Shown here piece after piece: positions 1,897 through 21,448 of a stretch of DNA of 28,126 bases. The position numbers were made by a program, and so were the translations under genes. This DNA comes from a virus. Every line of letters starts with the position of its first letter. Within the stretch, counting starts at the first letter, position 1. The stretch covers positions 1-28,126 of IMG/VR virus record IMGVR_UViG_3300009068_000150. The stretch is one strand, 5' to 3'. Under the pieces are notes generated by a model that worked only from the letters and a program-made list of their open reading frames with translations, searched no databases and was not told the origin of the DNA.

Positions 1897-3414
1897 TTAA
1901 GCCTTAAATTGTGTGTTGCTTGCTAAGACAGTAAAGGTTGCACTGCCTGTTTTAATGATGAGATAGCGGTAACTATCGATGCCACTTGCATTACCAGCAG
2001 TAGGCGCACCACCCAACCAGCGTGTAGTCACACCTGTAGCAGTGCCATCAACTTGTACAGCACTGTTGTAGTAAGCTGTAGCGCCTTGAGTCACCAAGAA
2101 AGCCACAGTCATTGATTGACCTGTAGACATCAACGTATTCAATGAAGTACCGCTGGAGGCTCTGAAGTTGACAGTCCAGTTAGCACTTGCGTTGCTGGTG
2201 TAGTACAGCACTGACTGTGTGGTGATGTCGTAGTTAATCGTGCCAGTAGCCGCTGTAGCTGAGACTGTTGCTACTTCTGCCGCATCATTCAGAACAATAG
2301 CTGTTGCTGATGATGTTCCTGAGAATGTCTGTGTACCTGTAAATGTGTTGGCAACATTGACAACAGCAATATTAGCCGCCGCCAAAGTGGTTTGACCAGT
2401 ACCACCATTGGCAATTGGCAAAGTACCAGTAACACCTGTAGTTAAAGGCAATCCAGTTGCATTTGTTAACGTACCGCTTGTTGGCGTACCCAATATAGGT
2501 GTAACCAGTGTGGGGCTTGTTGACAATACAGTATTGCCAGAGCCAGTAGAAGTTGTGACTCCAGTACCTCCATTGGCTACTGCCAATGTTCCAGCAAGGG
2601 TAATAGTGCCAGCACTTGTAACTGGTCCACCGCTTGTAGTCAGTCCAGTTGTGCCGCCCGATACAGCCACGCTGGTAACAGAGCCAGAGCCTGGTCCTGT
2701 AAACGCAATTTGAATCGATCCAGCGCCTGGCGTAATGGTCACACCAGAGCCTGCCGTCAAAGATGCCTTAGTCAGAGTATTTCCAGTGCTGTTACCAATA
2801 AGTAATTGACCATCGGTGTAGCTAGTCTGTCCAGTGCCGCCGTTGGCTACTGCCAATGTTCCAGTAACGGCAGTGGCTAAAGGAATGCCTGTCGCCGCAC
2901 CTGTGCCGCCGTTGGCGACTGGCAGAATACCAGTGACGCCGGTGGTTAAAGGAAGTCCTGTGGCATTTGTCAGCACAGCCGCAGAGGGTGTACCCAAAGC
3001 AGGAGTCACCAAGGTAGGTGAATTGGTGAATACCAAATTGCCTGTGCCTGTTTCATCGGTTACAGCGGCGGCTAAGTTTGCACTTGATGGCGTAGCCAAA
3101 AAGGTAGCCACGCCAGTGCCAAGACCGCTAACACCTGTTGAGATCGGCAAGCCTGTGGCATTTGTCAATGTGGCTGATGTCGGTGTGCCAAGCACAGGAG
3201 TTACAAGTGTGGGGCTGGTAGACAATACATTATTGCCAGAGCCTGTACTTGTACCGACACCAGTTCCACCCTTAGTAACTTTTAGAAGTGGACCAGCATC
3301 AAACAATGCGTCAATTAAATCAAGGTCATTGTTGACCTTAGTACCCCAAGTGTTTGAGCTTGCACCTACCTCTGGCTTTGTCAGCAGTAGGTTGGTGGTG
3401 GTGGTATCTGCCAT
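1897..3414 (-). CDS. Repetitive tail fibre protein
   Basis: A 505-residue protein with a short N-terminal head (residues 1-45, [19 protein letters not shown]), which in many phages begins fibre proteins and may attach to the tail. It is followed by low-complexity Gly/Thr/Ser/Val repeats to about residue 342. Three large modules contain [20 protein letters not shown] and TGV.G, and several carry (V/I)ANGGTG. The C-terminal 150 residues are less repetitive ([22 protein letters not shown]) and look like a beta-rich tip domain. A good ribosome site (AAGGAT, spacing about 6) precedes the ATG. It lies 9 bases after the adaptor gene and 4 bases before the next tail gene. No enzymatic motif is visible. 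Beta-helical fibre structure is inferred from composition. Confidence 0.82.
2389..3279. repeat. Imperfect in-frame repeats in the fibre gene
   Basis: The central fibre gene consists of diverged modules of roughly 45-55 codons. The module core, SPTLVTP then LGTP, TNATGLP and TGV, occurs at about residues 65-97, 130-162 and 299-330. Shorter copies of ANGGTG lie around 167, 189, 279 and 335. The bases are similar enough between copies for recombination. The antisense strand of these repeats stays open over long stretches, producing spurious Val/Pro-rich frames. Confidence 0.8.
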
Positions 3415-11375: not shown

Positions 11376-12863
11376 TTATGCAACCCTTGAGAGCTTCCTA
11401 CGCAACGGCTGATTCCACTTTGTAGATACAGCAGAGCCATACATCCCCACAACCGCATCAGACGCAAACGTCAAACAAAACGCATCAGCGCGGTCAGGCG
11501 AGGCCAGTCCACGCTTCCTGATCTCATCCTTACCCTCAATCTGAATCTTGCCGCTAGAAGTAAACGAATACCTCACAGTCGCCAGCTCAGCTATCAAAGC
11601 CTCATCTTTGGGCATAGTACAGTCCCGCAACTCAAGCCAAGCCTTGGCTTTATGCCATAACTCAGCCTTCAAATTACGATAGGTGTTACCCATCGCCGGT
11701 GACTCAGACACGTTAATCCCCCGCGCAGGCAAACCCAACTCCTTGAGCCTGTCCACCACACCAGCACCCAAACCAATTGAATCCACCAATATTTCCTGTG
11801 GGCGCTCACTTGGCGGCAATATCTCATACTCAGCCACCACCGCACCAGTGAGCTGCATCAGATCAAGGTTTTTCCAAGTCTTAATAGACTCGGTAACCGC
11901 ATTCCCCTTGCGCTTGCACAGCGCCGATCTGTCAGAGCCAAAACGCGCAACGTCCAAACCCCACACCAAAGGTGCGTGCTGGCTCGGCGCAACGTCACGG
12001 CTTGTCGCCAATTCCAGTAACTCCATCGGGATGACTGTATCGTCATCACTTCTTGGGAATTCACCCAGCACGCGGATGCGGTAAGCATTACTCTCCTCGC
12101 CGTACCGCGCCTTCATCTCCTCAATGTAAGCCTCGCTAACCCTTGGCGAATCAACGCAGGACACACGCATCGTCACCCAGTCGCTAGCGAGTCGGTTGTG
12201 CGTATCAAAGAAGAAACCGCTGGAACGTACCGGATTGCCAAGCAGTAACGTCACCGCATTGTGGCCGGACATAGAACCAGATGCCGCCTCAAATACCTGT
12301 TCAGGGATACCGCTCGCCTCGTCTCCCACCAGCATCACATGATCTGAGTGAACCCCTTGCAACGCTTCGGGTTGCTCGGCGCGGCTAGTCCTGGCTGAGA
12401 TAAACGCCTCGTTGTTGGCATCTTTCACCTCAATCCTGTCCTGCTTCACCTCCAACTGGTCAGCCAGCATCGGCGGCAGTACCTTTACCCAACGCTTAAC
12501 TTCAGCAAAGAGCGCGTCATACAACTGGCTGCTAGTCGGCGCAGTCACCACCACCTTGACAGGAAATCTCAGAAAGAGATACCAGATCATTGCCCACGCG
12601 CTTGCCGTCGATTTGCCTACGCCATGTCCTGATCTAACCGATATGCGTCTATTGCCTGCGGCGATGTGATTGAGGAACTCTATCTGCCATGGGTCAGGCT
12701 GCGTGTTGAGCACCTCGCGCACAAACTTCACAGGGTTGTTTTTGTAGAGTTTGACGAATTCAACAAATGGGTTATTCGCCACCAAGTCATCAAAAATTTT
12801 TTTCGGGACAGGCTTTGGCGCCACAAGGGGTAGGGGGGTGGGGGTCGCTTTAGGAATGCTCAT
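11376..12863 (-). CDS. terL: Terminase large subunit
   Basis: A 495-residue packaging ATPase-nuclease. The Walker A motif is SGHGVGKST at 78-86; a Walker B-like VMLVGDEA lies at 176-183 and a coupling motif LLLGNP at 206-211. The nuclease domain shows GLDVARFGSD (D304), LVDSIGLGAG (D361) and DRADAFCLTFA (D457/D460), the three acidic positions expected of an RNase H-like terminase nuclease. The Pro-rich N-terminus (TPTPLPLVAPKPVP) looks disordered. The ribosome site is weak (AGG, spacing about 7). The gene is separated from the small terminase gene by a 285-base noncoding region, which is unusual. Role: drives DNA into the procapsid through the portal and cuts the concatemer. Confidence 0.95.
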   Translation of the reverse strand: MSIPKATPTPLPLVAPKPVPKKIFDDLVANNPFVEFVKLYKNNPVKFVREVLNTQPDPWQIEFLNHIAAGNRRISVRSGHGVGKSTASAWAMIWYLFLRFPVKVVVTAPTSSQLYDALFAEVKRWVKVLPPMLADQLEVKQDRIEVKDANNEAFISARTSRAEQPEALQGVHSDHVMLVGDEASGIPEQVFEAASGSMSGHNAVTLLLGNPVRSSGFFFDTHNRLASDWVTMRVSCVDSPRVSEAYIEEMKARYGEESNAYRIRVLGEFPRSDDDTVIPMELLELATSRDVAPSQHAPLVWGLDVARFGSDRSALCKRKGNAVTESIKTWKNLDLMQLTGAVVAEYEILPPSERPQEILVDSIGLGAGVVDRLKELGLPARGINVSESPAMGNTYRNLKAELWHKAKAWLELRDCTMPKDEALIAELATVRYSFTSSGKIQIEGKDEIRKRGLASPDRADAFCLTFASDAVVGMYGSAVSTKWNQPLRRKLSRVA

Positions 12864-12891
12864 GGCGATACCTGTTTGGGTGCTGCATCAG

Positions 12892-12944
12892 CCGCCCCCG
12901 CCGCCGCGAGCAAGGGGGGGCTCGACGCGCCAGCGCCAGGCGCG
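12892..12944. repeat. GC-rich hairpin cluster upstream of terL
   Basis: Perfect arms CGAGC (12907-12911) and GCTCG (12920-12924) enclose an eight-base G-rich loop. Next to it CGCGCC (12926-12931) pairs with GGCGCG (12939-12944) around a seven-base loop. A run of five C at 12895-12899 could instead pair with the seven-G run at 12914-12920. In the minus-strand transcript this would be a structured leader of the large terminase mRNA. No T-tract follows, so it is not a standard terminator. A packaging signal is an alternative. Confidence 0.5.
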
Positions 12945-12978
12945 GCCAGCCACCGGATGCCAGTAAACGGCTGAAAAG

Positions 12979-12987
12979 TTATCCACA
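12979..12987 (+). promoter_or_regulatory. DnaA box 1 (TTATCCACA)
   Basis: An exact copy of the proteobacterial DnaA consensus TTATCCACA, at the start of the AT-rich part of the noncoding region between the terminase genes. Confidence 0.6.
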
Positions 12988-13012
12988 GGTCGATGTGTCT
13001 GTAAGTCATTGA

Positions 13013-13042
13013 TCTATATGCTTTCTTACATGAGACTTACAT
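13013..13042 (-). promoter_or_regulatory. Putative late promoter with two ATGTAAG repeats
   Basis: Reading leftward, a -10-like TATAGA (13018-13013) is preceded by two direct copies of ATGTAAG (13042-13036 and 13031-13025) spaced 11 bases apart, about one helical turn, where a -35 element would be. A related TGTAAG lies in opposite orientation at 13000-13005. There is no TTGACA-like -35, so the repeats could be activator or sigma-factor sites. Transcription would start near 13006 and give a leader of about 140 bases before the large terminase gene. All of this is inference from spacing. Confidence 0.35.
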
Positions 13043-13079
13043 AATCGGCTTAACACGATGACTATTATGTTAACTTTAT

Positions 13080-13088
13080 TGTGGATAA
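13080..13088 (-). promoter_or_regulatory. DnaA box 2 (TTATCCACA, opposite strand)
   Basis: A second exact TTATCCACA copy, on the minus strand, 92 bases from box 1 and in opposite orientation. The AT-rich stretch lies between the two. Confidence 0.6.
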
Positions 13089-13125
13089 CTACAGCGATTC
13101 TGCTCAATAAACAGGCAGTTTGCGG

Positions 13126-13134
13126 TTGTCCACA
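13126..13134 (+). promoter_or_regulatory. DnaA box 3 (TTGTCCACA, one mismatch)
   Basis: Differs from the consensus at one position (G for A in the third base). It lies 37 bases after box 2, still in the noncoding region. Confidence 0.45.
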
Positions 13135-13148
13135 GGCCAGTGTGTACA

Positions 13149-13580
13149 TCATGCGCCATTTTCTGTGGATAAGTCATCGATGACCTCGACATGGCGCAGT
13201 GCCGCCATGCGTAGGTCTTGCACGTTGATGTTGATCTGTTGCGCCTTTTGTAAGCCATAAGTTTTGTTATCCCACCTTTCGGCCAGCCACTGGCGAGTGC
13301 GGATGCGCTGGACATCGCGCTGCGCGTGGTCGACGTCCATGCCGTCAGCGATTTTTATCGTGTCACAAGCCATCAGATCGGCGGCACGCGTGCGCGCGCG
13401 TGTAATCATAGCACCATGATCGTTTTCCTCAATCCAATCGTCTAGCGCACGCTTACCGATGCCTAAGTCGATGCATATATCTGCGATGCTTTTGCCGCTC
13501 TCCACCATGCTGAAGATCATCTCTTCTGGCATCTCATTGAGGAAAGCGACATCACTTCTTCGCTTTGGTGTACCAGCCAT
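13149..13580 (-). CDS. terS: Terminase small subunit
   Basis: A 143-residue DNA-binding packaging protein. Residues 29-52 form a helix-turn-helix (GKSIADICIDLGIGKRALDDWI). A central helical region (MITRARTRAADLMACDTIKIADG) is followed by DVQRIRTRQWLAERWDNKTYG, which is a widespread signature in small terminases with this architecture. The ATG is preceded by AGGGG with 6-base spacing. It starts 2 bases after the stop of a 29-codon ORF. Role: recognises the phage packaging site and recruits the large subunit. The unusual point is the noncoding gap before the large subunit gene, with one DnaA-like box overlapping its 3' end. Confidence 0.85.
   Translation of the reverse strand: MAGTPKRRSDVAFLNEMPEEMIFSMVESGKSIADICIDLGIGKRALDDWIEENDHGAMITRARTRAADLMACDTIKIADGMDVDHAQRDVQRIRTRQWLAERWDNKTYGLQKAQQININVQDLRMAALRHVEVIDDLSTENGA
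13164..13172 (-). promoter_or_regulatory. DnaA box 4 (TTATCCACA, inside terS end)
   Basis: A third exact consensus copy, on the minus strand, in the last codons of the small terminase gene (Leu-Ser-Thr coding stretch), 29 bases after box 3. The cluster therefore extends slightly into coding sequence. Confidence 0.5.
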
Positions 13581-14367: not shown

Positions 14368-14470
14368 AACAATCAGAAACTACGAGTCTTCTAGACTCTC
14401 GTTTCCGATTCTGATTTCTGATCGTCTGAAGCGTCTGATTTCTGATCGCTTCTGATCGCTTCTGATTGTT
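14368..14470. repeat. TCTGAT hexamer array flanked by 11-bp inverted repeats
   Basis: Between the primase-helicase stop and the next gene, the hexamer TCTGAT occurs at 14410, 14417, 14434, 14441, 14451 and 14461, with TCTGAA at 14425; spacing is 7-10 bases. A 15-base unit occurs twice (14410-14424 and 14434-14448 region), and the last two copies share a ten-base period. The block is enclosed by AACAATCAGAA (14368-14378) and its exact reverse complement TTCTGATTGTT (14460-14470). A long imperfect hairpin lies at about 14376-14405 (GAAAC-t-ACGAG against CTCGTTTC). It resembles iterons or a multi-site regulator target. No CRISPR-like spacers are present. Confidence 0.75.
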
Positions 14471-16574
14471 AGTTGTTAAACTTATACGCCGCCTCACTTG
14501 CCATTTTCGTCATCACATCTTGGTTAAGCCATGCCACTTTGTCGTGATGTCCACCCAAATTCTTCACTTTAAGTCTCCCCTTTGCTGTCCAAATTGCGTT
14601 ATTAATTTGCGTCTTTGTAGCGTCATAGGCACTAGCTTGGAGCTTCAATTCTTCTTTCCAATCGTCAATATTTGCCACTTTTAAGCTCACACCATCAATG
14701 ACCTCATTGAAACCTTTATTCTTAATTGCCCTATATAGTGCAGGCAGCTCATATGGCTGCCATTTGCCGCCATCTTTATTAGCTGGCGGCTTTTTCTCGG
14801 TCATCTTTGCGTGATCTGCTTTGGCTGAATCGCTGGCCTGCACCGCCAGGCTTATGACTGCTTTTGCCAATCCAAGTCCCGCTGGCCTGATCTCCACCTC
14901 CACCATCTCAAAGCCAAATCTAATCCCCTGCTCTCCATCTTTCTGTTTGGTAGTGGTGAGTACGCCTTTCATTTGATCTTCAAACCTTAGTAATTCCAGC
15001 TCTGTATCTACAGCGCCAAGCAGTGAGGAATGACCGCGCAGACCTTTGGCGGCGTCCTTTCCTGAGTGGTGCAGGACCATCAACGCGCAGTTGAGGAATT
15101 CCTGCACCTTACCCATGGCCGTGATGAATGCACCCATATCTTCTGAGCTGTTCTCGTTACCACCGCCGAATGCTCTGGCCAAAGTATCCACAATGGCCAA
15201 TCTGAACTCCATGCCTGTCTGCTCCACCAGCTGCACCACTGCCAGCATCAAGGCGTTGAAGTCCTCGGCGCTGGAACGTAGGTTTAGCTGATGTCTGACT
15301 ATGTATATGGGTGCGCCATCTTCGGTTTGGTGATGCAACTTGCAGGCTTTGATGCGTGCGCCGATACCGCCAAAGCCCTCGCCGGCCAAGTACAGCACCG
15401 CGCCGGTTTGCTTTACTGGCCTACCCATCCAGTTCCTACCTGTGGCGATGGCCTCAGCAATGTCTAGGGCTATGAACGACTTGAATGAGCCAGGCGGTCC
15501 ATAAAGCGCCGTAAAGCTGCCTACTGGTATGACACCCTCAATCAACCACTCGACTGGCTCATCCTGTATTGAGTCCCAAGATTCAATCTTTATCGTCTTG
15601 GCGGGTTTTGGTTTGTCTGCCTGCTTTGGCGGGTCGGATGCGAACTCATGTTCAATTTCTGCCTGTTTCTGTACATAAGAATCCTGATGTGTATAGATTT
15701 CGTCTGTTTTTATACTTAATGCGCTAATCGCCTGTAGCCTTTCGGGAATCGTTACATCATCGACACTGGTGAGCCTTGGCGCCGCCTTGACCAGCGCTGC
15801 CAGCTCCGACCTGCCGCCGCCTGCCTCAATGAACTCGTAGGCGTCATCGCCCTGCTCTTGCAGTCCAAGGTCAACTACCTTGACCGCCTTGGCAATTGGC
15901 AGGATGGCCTCTGCTGCCTTGCGAGCGTATGACCAGCCAGAGATATCGTTGTCCGGCAGTATGACTACGTTAGCGCCAGCAAAGTATTCGGTTATCGCGT
16001 CCGGCCAATGCCCTGCTCCACTGTGAGCTGTGGTGGCGGCCACACCGAGACTAATTAATGCGTCTACGGCTTTCTCGCCTTCAGCCAAGTAAATTATTCT
16101 TCCCGCTGTCTTCGCGTCCAGTAAGTCGGGTAGCTTATATGGGACTATGCGTGCATCACTCAGCGTTGTGTAGCGCTTGCCGTCACTATCTACTTTGTAG
16201 AGCCTATAAGTCTTTCCAGACTCCCCTACACGCAGCCGGTGCTTAACGAATACTGTGACGCGGTCTTCGTCTTGGTATTGCCACTCCTGCTGAAACTCTA
16301 TCTTTGGCAATGGTTTGATGTTGGCAAGTGGATCTGGTCGTTCTTCCAGCTCAGGTAAGAGGTTGCGATCCCTGATGGTTTGGAATACCGATTCCTGTGT
16401 ACATCCACCATGACAGTGGAACAAGGGTTTGCCCTCTTCATCGATGTGTACTGACAGACTGGGATTCTTATCGCCGTTGCCTTTGCCATGCGAAGGCACT
16501 GGGCAACTTGCTACCCATTGGCCGTTGGCTCTCTTGGCGTTGCCCAAGCTCTTGGCTATTTGTTCTGCTTGCAT
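14469..16574 (-). CDS. Primase-helicase (zinc finger, TOPRIM, RepA-like ATPase)
   Basis: A 701-residue replication protein. The N-terminal zinc-finger candidates are C24, H29, C54 and C58 (CPVPSH, then FHCHGGC). A TOPRIM-type primase core shows YLAEGEKAVDAL (E165) and VVILPDNDISGW (D208-D210). The C-terminal half is a RecA/RepA-like hexameric ATPase: Walker A GPPGSFKS at 359-366, Walker B-like LAIVDTLARAFGGG, and MVLHHSGKD and GLRGHSSLLG motifs. Residues 300-325 are a Lys/Pro-rich linker. It makes primers and unwinds the fork; no phage DNA polymerase is seen in the window, so a host polymerase may be used. The start has only a weak purine-rich site (AGAAAGA). It follows the broken acetyltransferase gene by 13 bases. 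Confidence 0.9.
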   Translation of the reverse strand: MQAEQIAKSLGNAKRANGQWVASCPVPSHGKGNGDKNPSLSVHIDEEGKPLFHCHGGCTQESVFQTIRDRNLLPELEERPDPLANIKPLPKIEFQQEWQYQDEDRVTVFVKHRLRVGESGKTYRLYKVDSDGKRYTTLSDARIVPYKLPDLLDAKTAGRIIYLAEGEKAVDALISLGVAATTAHSGAGHWPDAITEYFAGANVVILPDNDISGWSYARKAAEAILPIAKAVKVVDLGLQEQGDDAYEFIEAGGGRSELAALVKAAPRLTSVDDVTIPERLQAISALSIKTDEIYTHQDSYVQKQAEIEHEFASDPPKQADKPKPAKTIKIESWDSIQDEPVEWLIEGVIPVGSFTALYGPPGSFKSFIALDIAEAIATGRNWMGRPVKQTGAVLYLAGEGFGGIGARIKACKLHHQTEDGAPIYIVRHQLNLRSSAEDFNALMLAVVQLVEQTGMEFRLAIVDTLARAFGGGNENSSEDMGAFITAMGKVQEFLNCALMVLHHSGKDAAKGLRGHSSLLGAVDTELELLRFEDQMKGVLTTTKQKDGEQGIRFGFEMVEVEIRPAGLGLAKAVISLAVQASDSAKADHAKMTEKKPPANKDGGKWQPYELPALYRAIKNKGFNEVIDGVSLKVANIDDWKEELKLQASAYDATKTQINNAIWTAKGRLKVKNLGGHHDKVAWLNQDVMTKMASEAAYKFNN

Positions 16575-19887: not shown

Positions 19888-19905
19888 GTTTTGTGAAGAT
19901 GGTCA

Positions 19906-19911
19906 AGTATA
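19906..19911 (-). promoter_or_regulatory. Putative -10 of the leftward early promoter
   Basis: TATACT on the minus strand, about 18 bases upstream of the regulator ATG. A TTGCGC at 19936-19931 with a 19-base spacer is a weak -35 candidate and lies within a terminator hairpin. GTCAA at 19902-19906, reading TTGAC on the minus strand, directly follows the -10 and could be an operator half-site. Confidence 0.35.
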
Positions 19912-19914
19912 GGT

Positions 19915-19946
19915 AAAAAAAAGGGGGTCAGCGCAAGCCAACCCCC
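19915..19946 (-). terminator. Terminator shielding the leftward early operon
   Basis: On the minus strand GGGGGTTGGC pairs with GCTGACCCCC (two wobble pairs) around a four-base loop (TTGC), followed by eight T. It points leftward and lies just upstream of the regulator gene. Minus-strand transcription reaching here would come from the convergent late virion genes ending at 21420, so this terminator would protect the early region from late read-through. Confidence 0.75.
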
Positions 19947-20007
19947 AAAAGGCAACTAGCGAGGAACTTGAAAAACCCCGCTGGTGCTAAGTTTACAAAA
20001 ATAATAG

Positions 20008-20043
20008 TTGACTAACTTGTGTGGCATTTGACAGACAAGTCAA
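20008..20043. promoter_or_regulatory. TTGAC operator-like half-sites at the rightward promoter
   Basis: TTGAC occurs at 20008-20012 and 20028-20032 and in inverse orientation (GTCAA) at 20039-20043. The last two form a perfect palindrome TTGAC-N6-GTCAA that overlaps the -35 of the plus-strand promoter. ACAAGTCAA (20035-20043) also mirrors part of the left site. A fourth half-site lies at 19902-19906 near the leftward promoter. Binding by the neighbouring HTH regulator is inferred. Confidence 0.5.
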
Positions 20044-20055
20044 AAATGATATGAT
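20028..20055 (+). promoter_or_regulatory. Sigma70-type promoter of the rightward small-gene operon
   Basis: A perfect -35 TTGACA (20028-20033), a 16-base spacer and TATGAT as -10 (20050-20055). Transcription should start near 20062, giving a short leader with AAAGGAG (20072-20078) before the first ATG at 20087. Confidence 0.75.
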
Positions 20056-20086
20056 TATTCTGTCATTAATCAAAGGAGACATCGAA

Positions 20087-20224
20087 ATGAACCACACCCA
20101 GCACCCCTACATGGAGCAAGCAAGGCGCTTAGAGCGCCGAGCTGACTCTGCCCTTGACTTCCTCGCCGCCATCGCTATCGGCGTTGGCTTTGCCCTCTTA
20201 CTCGCCGCATGGTGGTCAGCATGA
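20087..20224 (+). CDS. 45-residue single-pass membrane protein
   Basis: First gene of the plus-strand operon. The ATG at 20087 follows AAAGGAG at good spacing; an upstream in-frame start at 20021 would lie within the promoter and is rejected. The N-terminal half is charged (NHTQHPYMEQARRLERRAD) and residues 25-43 (FLAAIAIGVGFALLLAAWW) are a clear membrane segment. A cytoplasmic-in orientation is likely from the Arg residues. Function is unknown; small membrane proteins made early often act on the host, and a holin-like role is a weaker alternative. Its TGA overlaps the next ATG. Confidence 0.75.
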   Translation: MNHTQHPYMEQARRLERRADSALDFLAAIAIGVGFALLLAAWWSA

Positions 20225-20490
20225 GCAAGAAGATGCAAGACGAAATCGACTTAGAAGTCGTGCGCCTCTCACCCCCCAAAGAGACTGCCATTGGCGTGAT
20301 GACTCAGGCCGAGATGGTGCAACTGATCCGCAAGTCTGTTCATTGTGGCGCAGTCATCGGTTGGGCTCACGCCGAGAGATTTACGCGAGAGCGTATGCAG
20401 GGAAAGATCGATCAGCTTGACTATGAGATGAAGTGCATCCAAGAGCGCCTCAAAGACGCCGAGATGGAACTGCTGGCGGTGCAGAAATGA
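20221..20490 (+). CDS. Hypothetical 89-residue helical protein
   Basis: Starts at the ATG that overlaps the previous stop (ATGA); an in-frame start four codons earlier is less likely. Residues 30-60 (MTQAEMVQLIRKSVHCGAVIG) look like a folded helical part, and 62-89 form a coiled coil (MQGKIDQLDYEMKCIQERL). No membrane segment. No known family. It is a soluble early protein, translated in coupling with its neighbours. Confidence 0.75.
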   Translation: MSKKMQDEIDLEVVRLSPPKETAIGVMTQAEMVQLIRKSVHCGAVIGWAHAERFTRERMQGKIDQLDYEMKCIQERLKDAEMELLAVQK

Positions 20491-20645
20491 GAGGCGATTG
20501 GCGCCCCGCCAAGGGTGTAAAGATAACTCTACCAAGCTGGTATGCCAAGGAGTTCAAGTATCCCAAACCAACTGATGTGCAGGCTACATGGCGGCGCTTC
20601 GGTTGGAAACCACCAAGTGAGGCTAAATTATGGAAACTATCCTGA
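20487..20645 (+). CDS. Hypothetical 52-residue Trp-rich basic protein
   Basis: ATGA overlap with the previous gene fixes the start. The sequence is basic and carries five Trp (GDWRPAKGVKITLPSWYAKEF, later ATWRRFGWKPPSEAKLW). It is too small for a standard enzyme; a compact host-interaction or nucleic-acid-binding role is possible. No family is recognised. Its end overlaps the next ATG by 16 bases in another frame. Confidence 0.7.
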   Translation: MRGDWRPAKGVKITLPSWYAKEFKYPKPTDVQATWRRFGWKPPSEAKLWKLS

Positions 20646-20737
20646 TCTTTTTCTTAATCGGCTTATTCGGCATTTTTGTGGTGATCGGCACACTGCTGTG
20701 CCTTGTTCTGTTTTTGCTGGAATGCGAGGTTGAGTGA
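20630..20737 (+). CDS. 35-residue hydrophobic membrane peptide
   Basis: A short ORF beginning METILIFFLIGLFGIFVVIG and ending LECEVE. Nearly the whole chain from residue 4 to 30 is hydrophobic, one membrane helix with an acidic tail. GAGG about 8 bases before the ATG is a usable ribosome site. The stop TGA overlaps the next gene's ATG (TGATG). It is the second tiny membrane protein in this operon. Confidence 0.7.
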   Translation: METILIFFLIGLFGIFVVIGTLLCLVLFLLECEVE

Positions 20738-20892
20738 TGGTGAAAGAGAAGATAGAGCAGGGTAGAGCCATCACAGTGCGCCTCACCCAGTCCGAACACG
20801 CCGAGTACATCAGGCTTGGCGGTGTAAAGTTTTTGAGACTCTTCTTGCAGACAAGTGCAGGCATTCAGAAAGAGATAAAGGAGAAGAAGTGA
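20737..20892 (+). CDS. Small RHH-like DNA-binding protein (51 residues)
   Basis: The start overlaps the previous stop (TGATG). AITVRLTQSEHAEYIRLGGV (residues 11-30) has the beta-strand then helix pattern of Arc/MetJ ribbon-helix-helix proteins, and FLRLFLQTSAGIQKEI gives the second helix. Ribbon-helix-helix is inferred from pattern. It could regulate this operon or bind host promoters. The GTG of the next gene overlaps its TGA. Confidence 0.65.
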   Translation: MVKEKIEQGRAITVRLTQSEHAEYIRLGGVKFLRLFLQTSAGIQKEIKEKK

Positions 20893-21260
20893 AATCTGTA
20901 CGCCTGCCACGCATCATCAATCTGCTTCAGCTTGTCGGATGCACTGCGCCGGAGGTTGCCACCAAGGTGTACTGCACAGAGAGATCAGCTCAGATACTGA
21001 TCAACAGACTGCGCCAGCAAGGTGTCGTACATATACAGGAGTGGCGCAGATCGGGTAATGTTTGGGTGGCGGTGTACAGACATGGCATAGGCACTGATGC
21101 CGCCAAGCCCAAACCTCTGACGGCTCAAGAGAGGCTTAAACGCTGGCGAGCCAAGGAGTCCTTAGACGATCATGCCTTTCGCATGGCCAAGGAAAGAGCA
21201 AAGAAGTGGAAGATCAAGCGCGATCCGCTGGTGGCTGCGCTGTTTGGAGAAGCAAGTTGA
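20889..21260 (+). CDS. Winged-helix-like protein with basic C-terminus
   Basis: A 123-residue protein starting at GTG (GTGA overlap). Residues 1-60 (RIINLLQLVGCTAPEVATKV, then ERSAQILINRLRQQGVVHIQEW) match a winged-helix DNA-binding domain with a recognition helix around 33-45. A Pro-rich hinge (AAKPKPLTAQERLKRWRAKE) leads to a very basic C-terminal helix (AKERAKKWKIKRD). It is probably a transcription regulator or DNA-binding accessory protein of the early operon. The AKPKPLTAQERLKRWR type hinge is frequent in small phage regulators. The target is not known. Confidence 0.75.
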   Translation: MKSVRLPRIINLLQLVGCTAPEVATKVYCTERSAQILINRLRQQGVVHIQEWRRSGNVWVAVYRHGIGTDAAKPKPLTAQERLKRWRAKESLDDHAFRMAKERAKKWKIKRDPLVAALFGEAS

Positions 21261-21448
21261 AAATTATTAACGCAAAATCAATGGAAGAAATTGAGTTAAC
21301 CAAGCTGGAGAGCTTGCTAGCCAATGAATATGCCGACTTATGGTTGGCTAAATTTGGTACGCCACCAAGAGGAATGCATCCAATCCCCAGCAATGTTGCT
21401 GAAGATGAGATAAAGTTTTTTATTTCTTTTTCCGAACATCAGGAATAG
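21257..21448 (+). CDS. Hypothetical 63-residue acidic protein, end of early operon
   Basis: Probable TTG start at 21257, overlapping the previous TGA, with GGAG 7 bases in front; ATG at 21281 is the alternative. The protein is acidic and helical (EEIELTKLESLLANEYADLWL) followed by FGTPPRGMHPIPS. No known family. Its last 29 bases overlap, on the opposite strand, the end of the late virion gene, so the two operons converge here and no terminator fits between the two stops. Confidence 0.65.
   Translation: MKIINAKSMEEIELTKLESLLANEYADLWLAKFGTPPRGMHPIPSNVAEDEIKFFISFSEHQE

Follow-up and report, generated by a model that had tools for sequence, protein, structure and literature searches.

In this study, we believe with moderate confidence that the noncoding gap between the two terminase genes of a freshwater phage is a host-run replicon module, in which a putative DnaA/IHF origin is combined with a candidate XerCD site at the packaging end of the genome. 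DnaA boxes and a dif-like Xer site are crowded together in this gap (12864-13148, 285 bp) and the adjoining end of the small terminase gene; they are conserved in relatives, keep a fixed spacing, occur together in other viral records and lie beside the terminase genes. The elements of the gap are predicted docking sites for host DnaA and, very probably, for XerCD. The same layout in many distantly related phages suggests that the host starts the copying of the phage DNA and closes it into circles.

The window, that is, the whole stretch of DNA that was analysed, is the 28,126 bp virus record of a podovirus-like phage. It encodes portal, head and scaffold proteins, an Sf6-like small terminase (TerS), the large terminase (TerL), an AAA_25 primase-helicase, an exonuclease and a RuvC-like resolvase. 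In the near-complete relative G002, the portal and head proteins are SU10-like, and no integrase, tyrosine recombinase or DNA polymerase was found among its Pfam hits (48 proteins, 18 Pfam families matched). Several relatives assemble with overlapping ends into circles of about 34-38 kb. The gap DNA had no meaningful similarity to isolated phages or to plasmids. In the region, no Rfam family or tRNA was found, and there were no iterons except the DnaA boxes and a 12-bp repeat beside box D. The features are listed in Table 1.

Table 1. Features in and around the TerS-TerL gap of the window; the conservation of a box is its identity to the window over nine columns in the relatives.
Feature	Position	Strand	Remarks
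DnaA box A, TTATCCACA	12979..12987	+	exact match; offset -74 from Xer-site core; conservation 0.72
DnaA box B, TTATCCACA	13080..13088	-	exact match; conservation 0.80
DnaA box C, TTGTCCACA	13126..13134	+	conservation 0.93; the +73 box, common to several lineages
DnaA box D, TTATCCACA, within terS 3' end	13164..13172	-	exact match; conservation 0.98; the +111 to +113 box, common to several lineages
dif-like Xer site: XerC arm GCTTAACACGA, centre TGACTA, XerD arm TTATGTTAACT	13048..13075	+	28 bp, 11-6-11
IHF-like site GATCAATGACTTA (12/13 of WATCAANNNNTTR)	13002..13014	-	sequence match only
C7...G5 inverted repeat, putative packaging/terminus element	12895..12920	-	from position in relatives and phiM5 counterpart
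Small terminase gene (TerS, Sf6-like)	13149..13580	-	PHROG 1482, 2.7e-14; Pfam Sf6_terminase, 4.1e-13
Large terminase gene (TerL)	11376..12863	-	PHROG 2, 1.2e-47
Primase-helicase, RepA-type AAA_25 domain	14469..16574	-	profile matches

The whole window contains four TTRTCCACA, all inside 194 bp; three are exact TTATCCACA, with no others in the window. The original prediction, which named three exact TTATCCACA and one TTGTCCACA within 194 bases on both strands, was therefore confirmed. Its placement of the boxes in the noncoding gap holds for three of them, and box D is part of the last codons of the small-terminase ORF. Under a second-order Markov model of the window, the chance expectation was a mean of 0.56 TTRTCCACA per window, and none of 1000 simulated windows put two of them within 194 bp.

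We recovered 78 distinct TerS-TerL gaps from relatives, and boxes were counted on 76 of them, each extended to include the final 60 bp of terS. The boxes and their spacing recur in these 76 distinct relatives, with two boxes in 5 regions, three in 37 and four in 34. When 20 records were searched whole, the great majority of TTRTCCACA sat in the TerS-TerL gap. Neither of the two objections foreseen at the outset, equal box density elsewhere and lack of conservation in relatives, was borne out. Box A is the least conserved of the four. One box varies among the relatives in strand and place (162-, 158+ and 171+) and is always still a box. A box that moves or flips strand yet stays a box points to selection on the box itself, and argues against an RNA hairpin or the plain inheritance of sequence.

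Further boxes were seen outside the gap in some relatives. Five of them with a TerL about 76% identical (L271, L273, L265, L268 and L278) have an extra two or three TTATCCACA boxes on the same strand, roughly 1.2 kb upstream of the module and about 2.1-2.3 kb upstream of TerL. The closest database relative (L315, MW202879) has two TTATCCACA at 3059-3067 and 3179-3187, 120 bp apart, beside the primase gene and upstream of terS, and no dif-like site was seen there.

Alignment of the relatives revealed a strongly conserved noncoding dyad, the Xer-like site, in the AT-rich segment between the boxes. An Xer site has been defined as two 11-bp arms with partial dyad symmetry around a 6-bp centre (PMC5357621), and the phage site has this structure. 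TTATGTTAA, which forms the XerD-arm core of proteobacterial dif, is found in its right arm. The dif-like site is present in 76 of the 78 distinct gaps, with mismatched versions in the other two, and is single copy in each record except where contig ends overlap. Its XerD arm (conservation 0.93) is better conserved than its XerC arm (0.82), and the centre is the least conserved part (0.68). The same order has been reported for proteobacterial dif (PMC2731167), and we counted this agreement in favour of its identity as an Xer site. In 9 of 9 phage records, this site was the best match to the Burkholderiales dif consensus. In a single genome, the dif score is unexceptional, since 8 of 100 simulated windows reached the same score.

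IMG/VR was then scanned with the Xer-like pattern AYACRANNNNNATTATGTTAAS, which is free of DnaA information; at least 120 stretches were obtained and 117 sites were examined. Among the matches listed, 102 of the 117 sites had a TTRTCCACA within 400 bp, and the box density fell from 6.48 per kb at up to 200 bp from the site to 0.047 per kb beyond 400 bp, a 137-fold difference. At least 189 distinct modules, with site and boxes in common phase, fell into 33 clusters below 60% ungapped identity; because the clustering was ungapped, this number may overstate how distant some of the clusters are from one another. Measured from the site, the box offsets across clusters are about +73, +89 and +111 to +113, among the matches listed. 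In the reverse search, a dif-like site was found in only 2 of 97 other viral loci detected by a DnaA-box pair, which indicates that the association runs from the Xer site to the boxes and not the reverse. DnaA-box clusters are commoner in viruses than the combined module. Many viral contigs (L433-L529) have DnaA-box clusters and no dif-like site, one of them (L503) with as many as 19 boxes in roughly 600 bp, and some of these contigs may be plasmid or host DNA.

The placement of the module was compared using four TerL query groups, two of which are about 30% identical to each other and one of which has no BLAST similarity to the TerL of the window. TerL was downstream of the module and read away from it in all 89 modules with TerL on the contig, at a distance of 66-2430 bp (among the matches listed). 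In the same 89 modules, again among the matches listed, the Xer site pointed in the TerL direction in 42 and in the opposite direction in 47. TerS precedes the site in three TerL groups (61/61) and follows it in the fourth (19/19), among the matches listed; in the TL_411 lineages, the module is before TerS, not after it. We speculate, though we hold it to fall somewhat short of probable, that this is a mobile module common to tailed phages with different terminases. It would pair a host-DnaA origin with a host-XerCD site located at the end of the genome, and injected DNA would be circularised by the machinery that handles host chromosome dimers, in place of a phage recombinase or of cohesive ends.

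The centre of the site is TGACTA or TGNCCA in the phages and varies among relatives, and has only partial homology to the TGTATA of most sampled Burkholderiales chromosomal dif, a group that may differ from that of the host. This may speak against the alternative that the Xer site is an attachment site, at which host XerCD integrates the phage at the chromosomal dif as in IMEX-type lysogeny, with the boxes serving the excised or episomal form. IMEX phages do carry a dif-like attP and use host XerCD (PMC5357621; PMC2731167), the Pfam hits of G002 include no integrase, and the XerD arm resembles Burkholderiales dif. However, the site pattern was absent from 300 Burkholderiales genomes (again, the host may belong elsewhere), and a search of 84,980 species genomes found only two TerL relatives (64% and 31% identity), both on short contigs. 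The constant placement of the site by the terminase genes is also against it. We regard integration at dif as unlikely; this explanation has been weakened and is less likely than the host-run replicon.

The original prediction also described an AT-rich segment between the boxes. This is right for the middle, where the GC content is 33.7% at 12988-13079 (1.3 percentile of the window) and 30.5% at 12998-13079 (0.8 percentile), but not for the gap as a whole, which is not AT-rich (52.3% GC). The IHF-like sequence ATCAANNNNTTR was found in the regions of 74 of 76 relatives against an expected 0.07 per 300 bp, a figure that overstates independence because the sequences are kin. The GC-skew switch predicted at the site was absent, and both the window and complete relatives showed a monotonic skew; the skew test is weak for a small phage, since nearly all genes point one way. 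One part of the window (19900-21400) has a positive GC skew and small + strand ORFs, unlike the rest, with no notable family matches, and is possibly a control region.

The original prediction proposed that the boxes are an origin or titrate DnaA. A DnaA-type site by an AT-rich segment and the packaging genes was supported; the Xer site (the best conserved element), the IHF-like site and the C/G repeat had been missed, and with these elements the gap reads as a module for origin and recombination together, where an origin or DnaA titration had been proposed. Titration as such would need no fixed phase of the boxes to the Xer site, the IHF site or the AT-rich middle. We think it improbable that the boxes serve as a sink for DnaA, or as a switch through which DnaA controls terminase transcription, with no origin and with an Xer site for multimer resolution only. 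Several boxes could titrate DnaA, and the module is directly upstream of the terminase genes; against a switch, no promoter-like or terminator-like match to consensus was found in the region.

All 50 modules with the TerL group of the window have the C/G-rich inverted repeat, at 62-176 bp downstream of the Xer site, versus just 4 of 39 with other TerL groups (among the matches listed). In phage phiM5 (MF074189), whose TerL is 54% identical, the counterpart lies at 315-344, so that 13 bp separate its end from that of the annotated terminal repeat (1-357). Judging from phiM5, the one annotated relative, which itself has no module, the C/G element would mark the packaging end for the terminase group of the window, and the DnaA/Xer module would lie just inside the redundant DNA. 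We do not claim a stable hairpin at the repeat, because its single-stranded DNA folds no better than shuffled sequences. A C run of the CCCCCTACCCC type was also seen near the terL start (12826-12850 of the window), and many relatives have one just past the C/G inverted repeat.

Contig ends were about fourfold in excess near the Xer site, with 17 of 71 lying no more than 200 bp away versus 4.3 expected (L316-L432, among the matches listed); they fall on either side of it, and their offset is not fixed. This excess could reflect assembly breaks, microdiversity or true ends, and we did not take the contig ends as physical termini. A 2.86-kb end overlap in G328 was likewise rejected as a measured terminal repeat, since it is 97.3% identical and looks like an assembly overlap of strains.

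The least probable explanation is that the element in its entirety serves as a packaging (pac/cos) site, with the 9-mers and the 28-bp dyad bound by terminase or another phage protein. In its favour are the position between TerS and TerL, the C/G element at the phiM5 terminal-repeat border and the example of lambda cos, which also has repeated sites and an IHF site. Against it, the repeats equal the DnaA consensus exactly, usual A/G variation included, and the boxes and the dyad are found with four groups of TerL, whose DNA specificity need not be the same. The C/G element is bound to one terminase group and the module to four, so it is the C/G element, not the box module, that fits packaging.

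From this anatomy we infer that DnaA, IHF and XerCD bind, that the site acts as an origin and that the genome is circularised, in the following manner. Host DnaA would bind the TTRTCCACA boxes, and bending by IHF would help it to open the AT-rich middle, on which the phage primase-helicase could load and host polymerase could start copying. Host XerC and XerD would bind the 28-bp dif-like site. The position of the module at the packaging end, between TerS and TerL and by the C/G element that marks the phiM5 terminal repeat, implies that the terminally redundant DNA of each packaged linear genome may include the site. XerCD could then circularise the injected genome by joining the two site copies, and would later keep the replicating circles monomeric. 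The precedents of P1 and pSC101 make each of these steps plausible.

The reading as a host-run module is favoured by a box cluster that is beyond chance, unique to the gap and conserved in 76 relatives, by an 11-6-11 Xer site with co-occurring boxes in shared phase and TerL always downstream, and by the circular assemblies, the lack of integrase and DNA polymerase hits in G002 and the phiM5 repeat border at the C/G element. Against it, we counted the missing skew switch, the unexceptional dif score in one genome, the centre unlike Burkholderiales dif, the contig ends at no fixed offset, phiM5 without boxes or a convincing site, and the placement in TL_411. The use of host Xer by phages is known mainly from the integration of filamentous and related elements. 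If the reading is true, the origins and genome ends of uncultured freshwater phages could be found by a simple rule, phage replication would be tied to host DnaA activity and thus to the growth state, and infection is predicted to depend on XerC and XerD.

In a literature search that covered few subscription papers, we found no description of a combined DnaA-origin and Xer-site module in a tailed phage. The Sinorhizobium phage phiM5 resembles the window in its related TerL and in a C/G inverted repeat directly upstream of TerL, but differs in that it has no DnaA boxes and no convincing dif-like site. The plasmid pSC101 is similar in that its origin has a DnaA box and an IHF site and it also carries psi, a site for host XerCD. 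The psi site has the XerD core TTATGTTAA and a centre ending in CCA. It has been described as an Xer site (PMC5357621). Unlike pSC101, the phage has several boxes, its sites are interlocked in a stretch of 194 bp, and no iterons were found beyond the boxes; the replicon here is a tailed phage, and the module is at the terminase genes.

The IMEX phages CTXphi, VGJphi and TLCphi, and other filamentous phages that integrate at dif, also have a dif-like site and no integrase of their own (PMC5357621, PMC2731167). The DnaA-box arrangement of the module is not described for them in these two papers (PMC5357621, PMC2731167). IMEX phages integrate and are filamentous or satellite elements, whereas no integrated copy was found here in the 300 Burkholderiales genomes.

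Phage P1 has an oriR with DnaA boxes, and its lox-Cre system near the packaging start circularises redundant linear DNA. The circularisation of P1 is cited in PMC11437467. Like P1, the phages studied here combine a putative phage origin with DnaA boxes and a candidate site for site-specific recombination, with a packaging start deduced from phiM5 only; in P1, however, oriR and lox-Cre are not one compact module. P1 encodes Cre, whereas the Pfam hits of the relative G002 include no tyrosine recombinase, so host XerCD would act in place of Cre.
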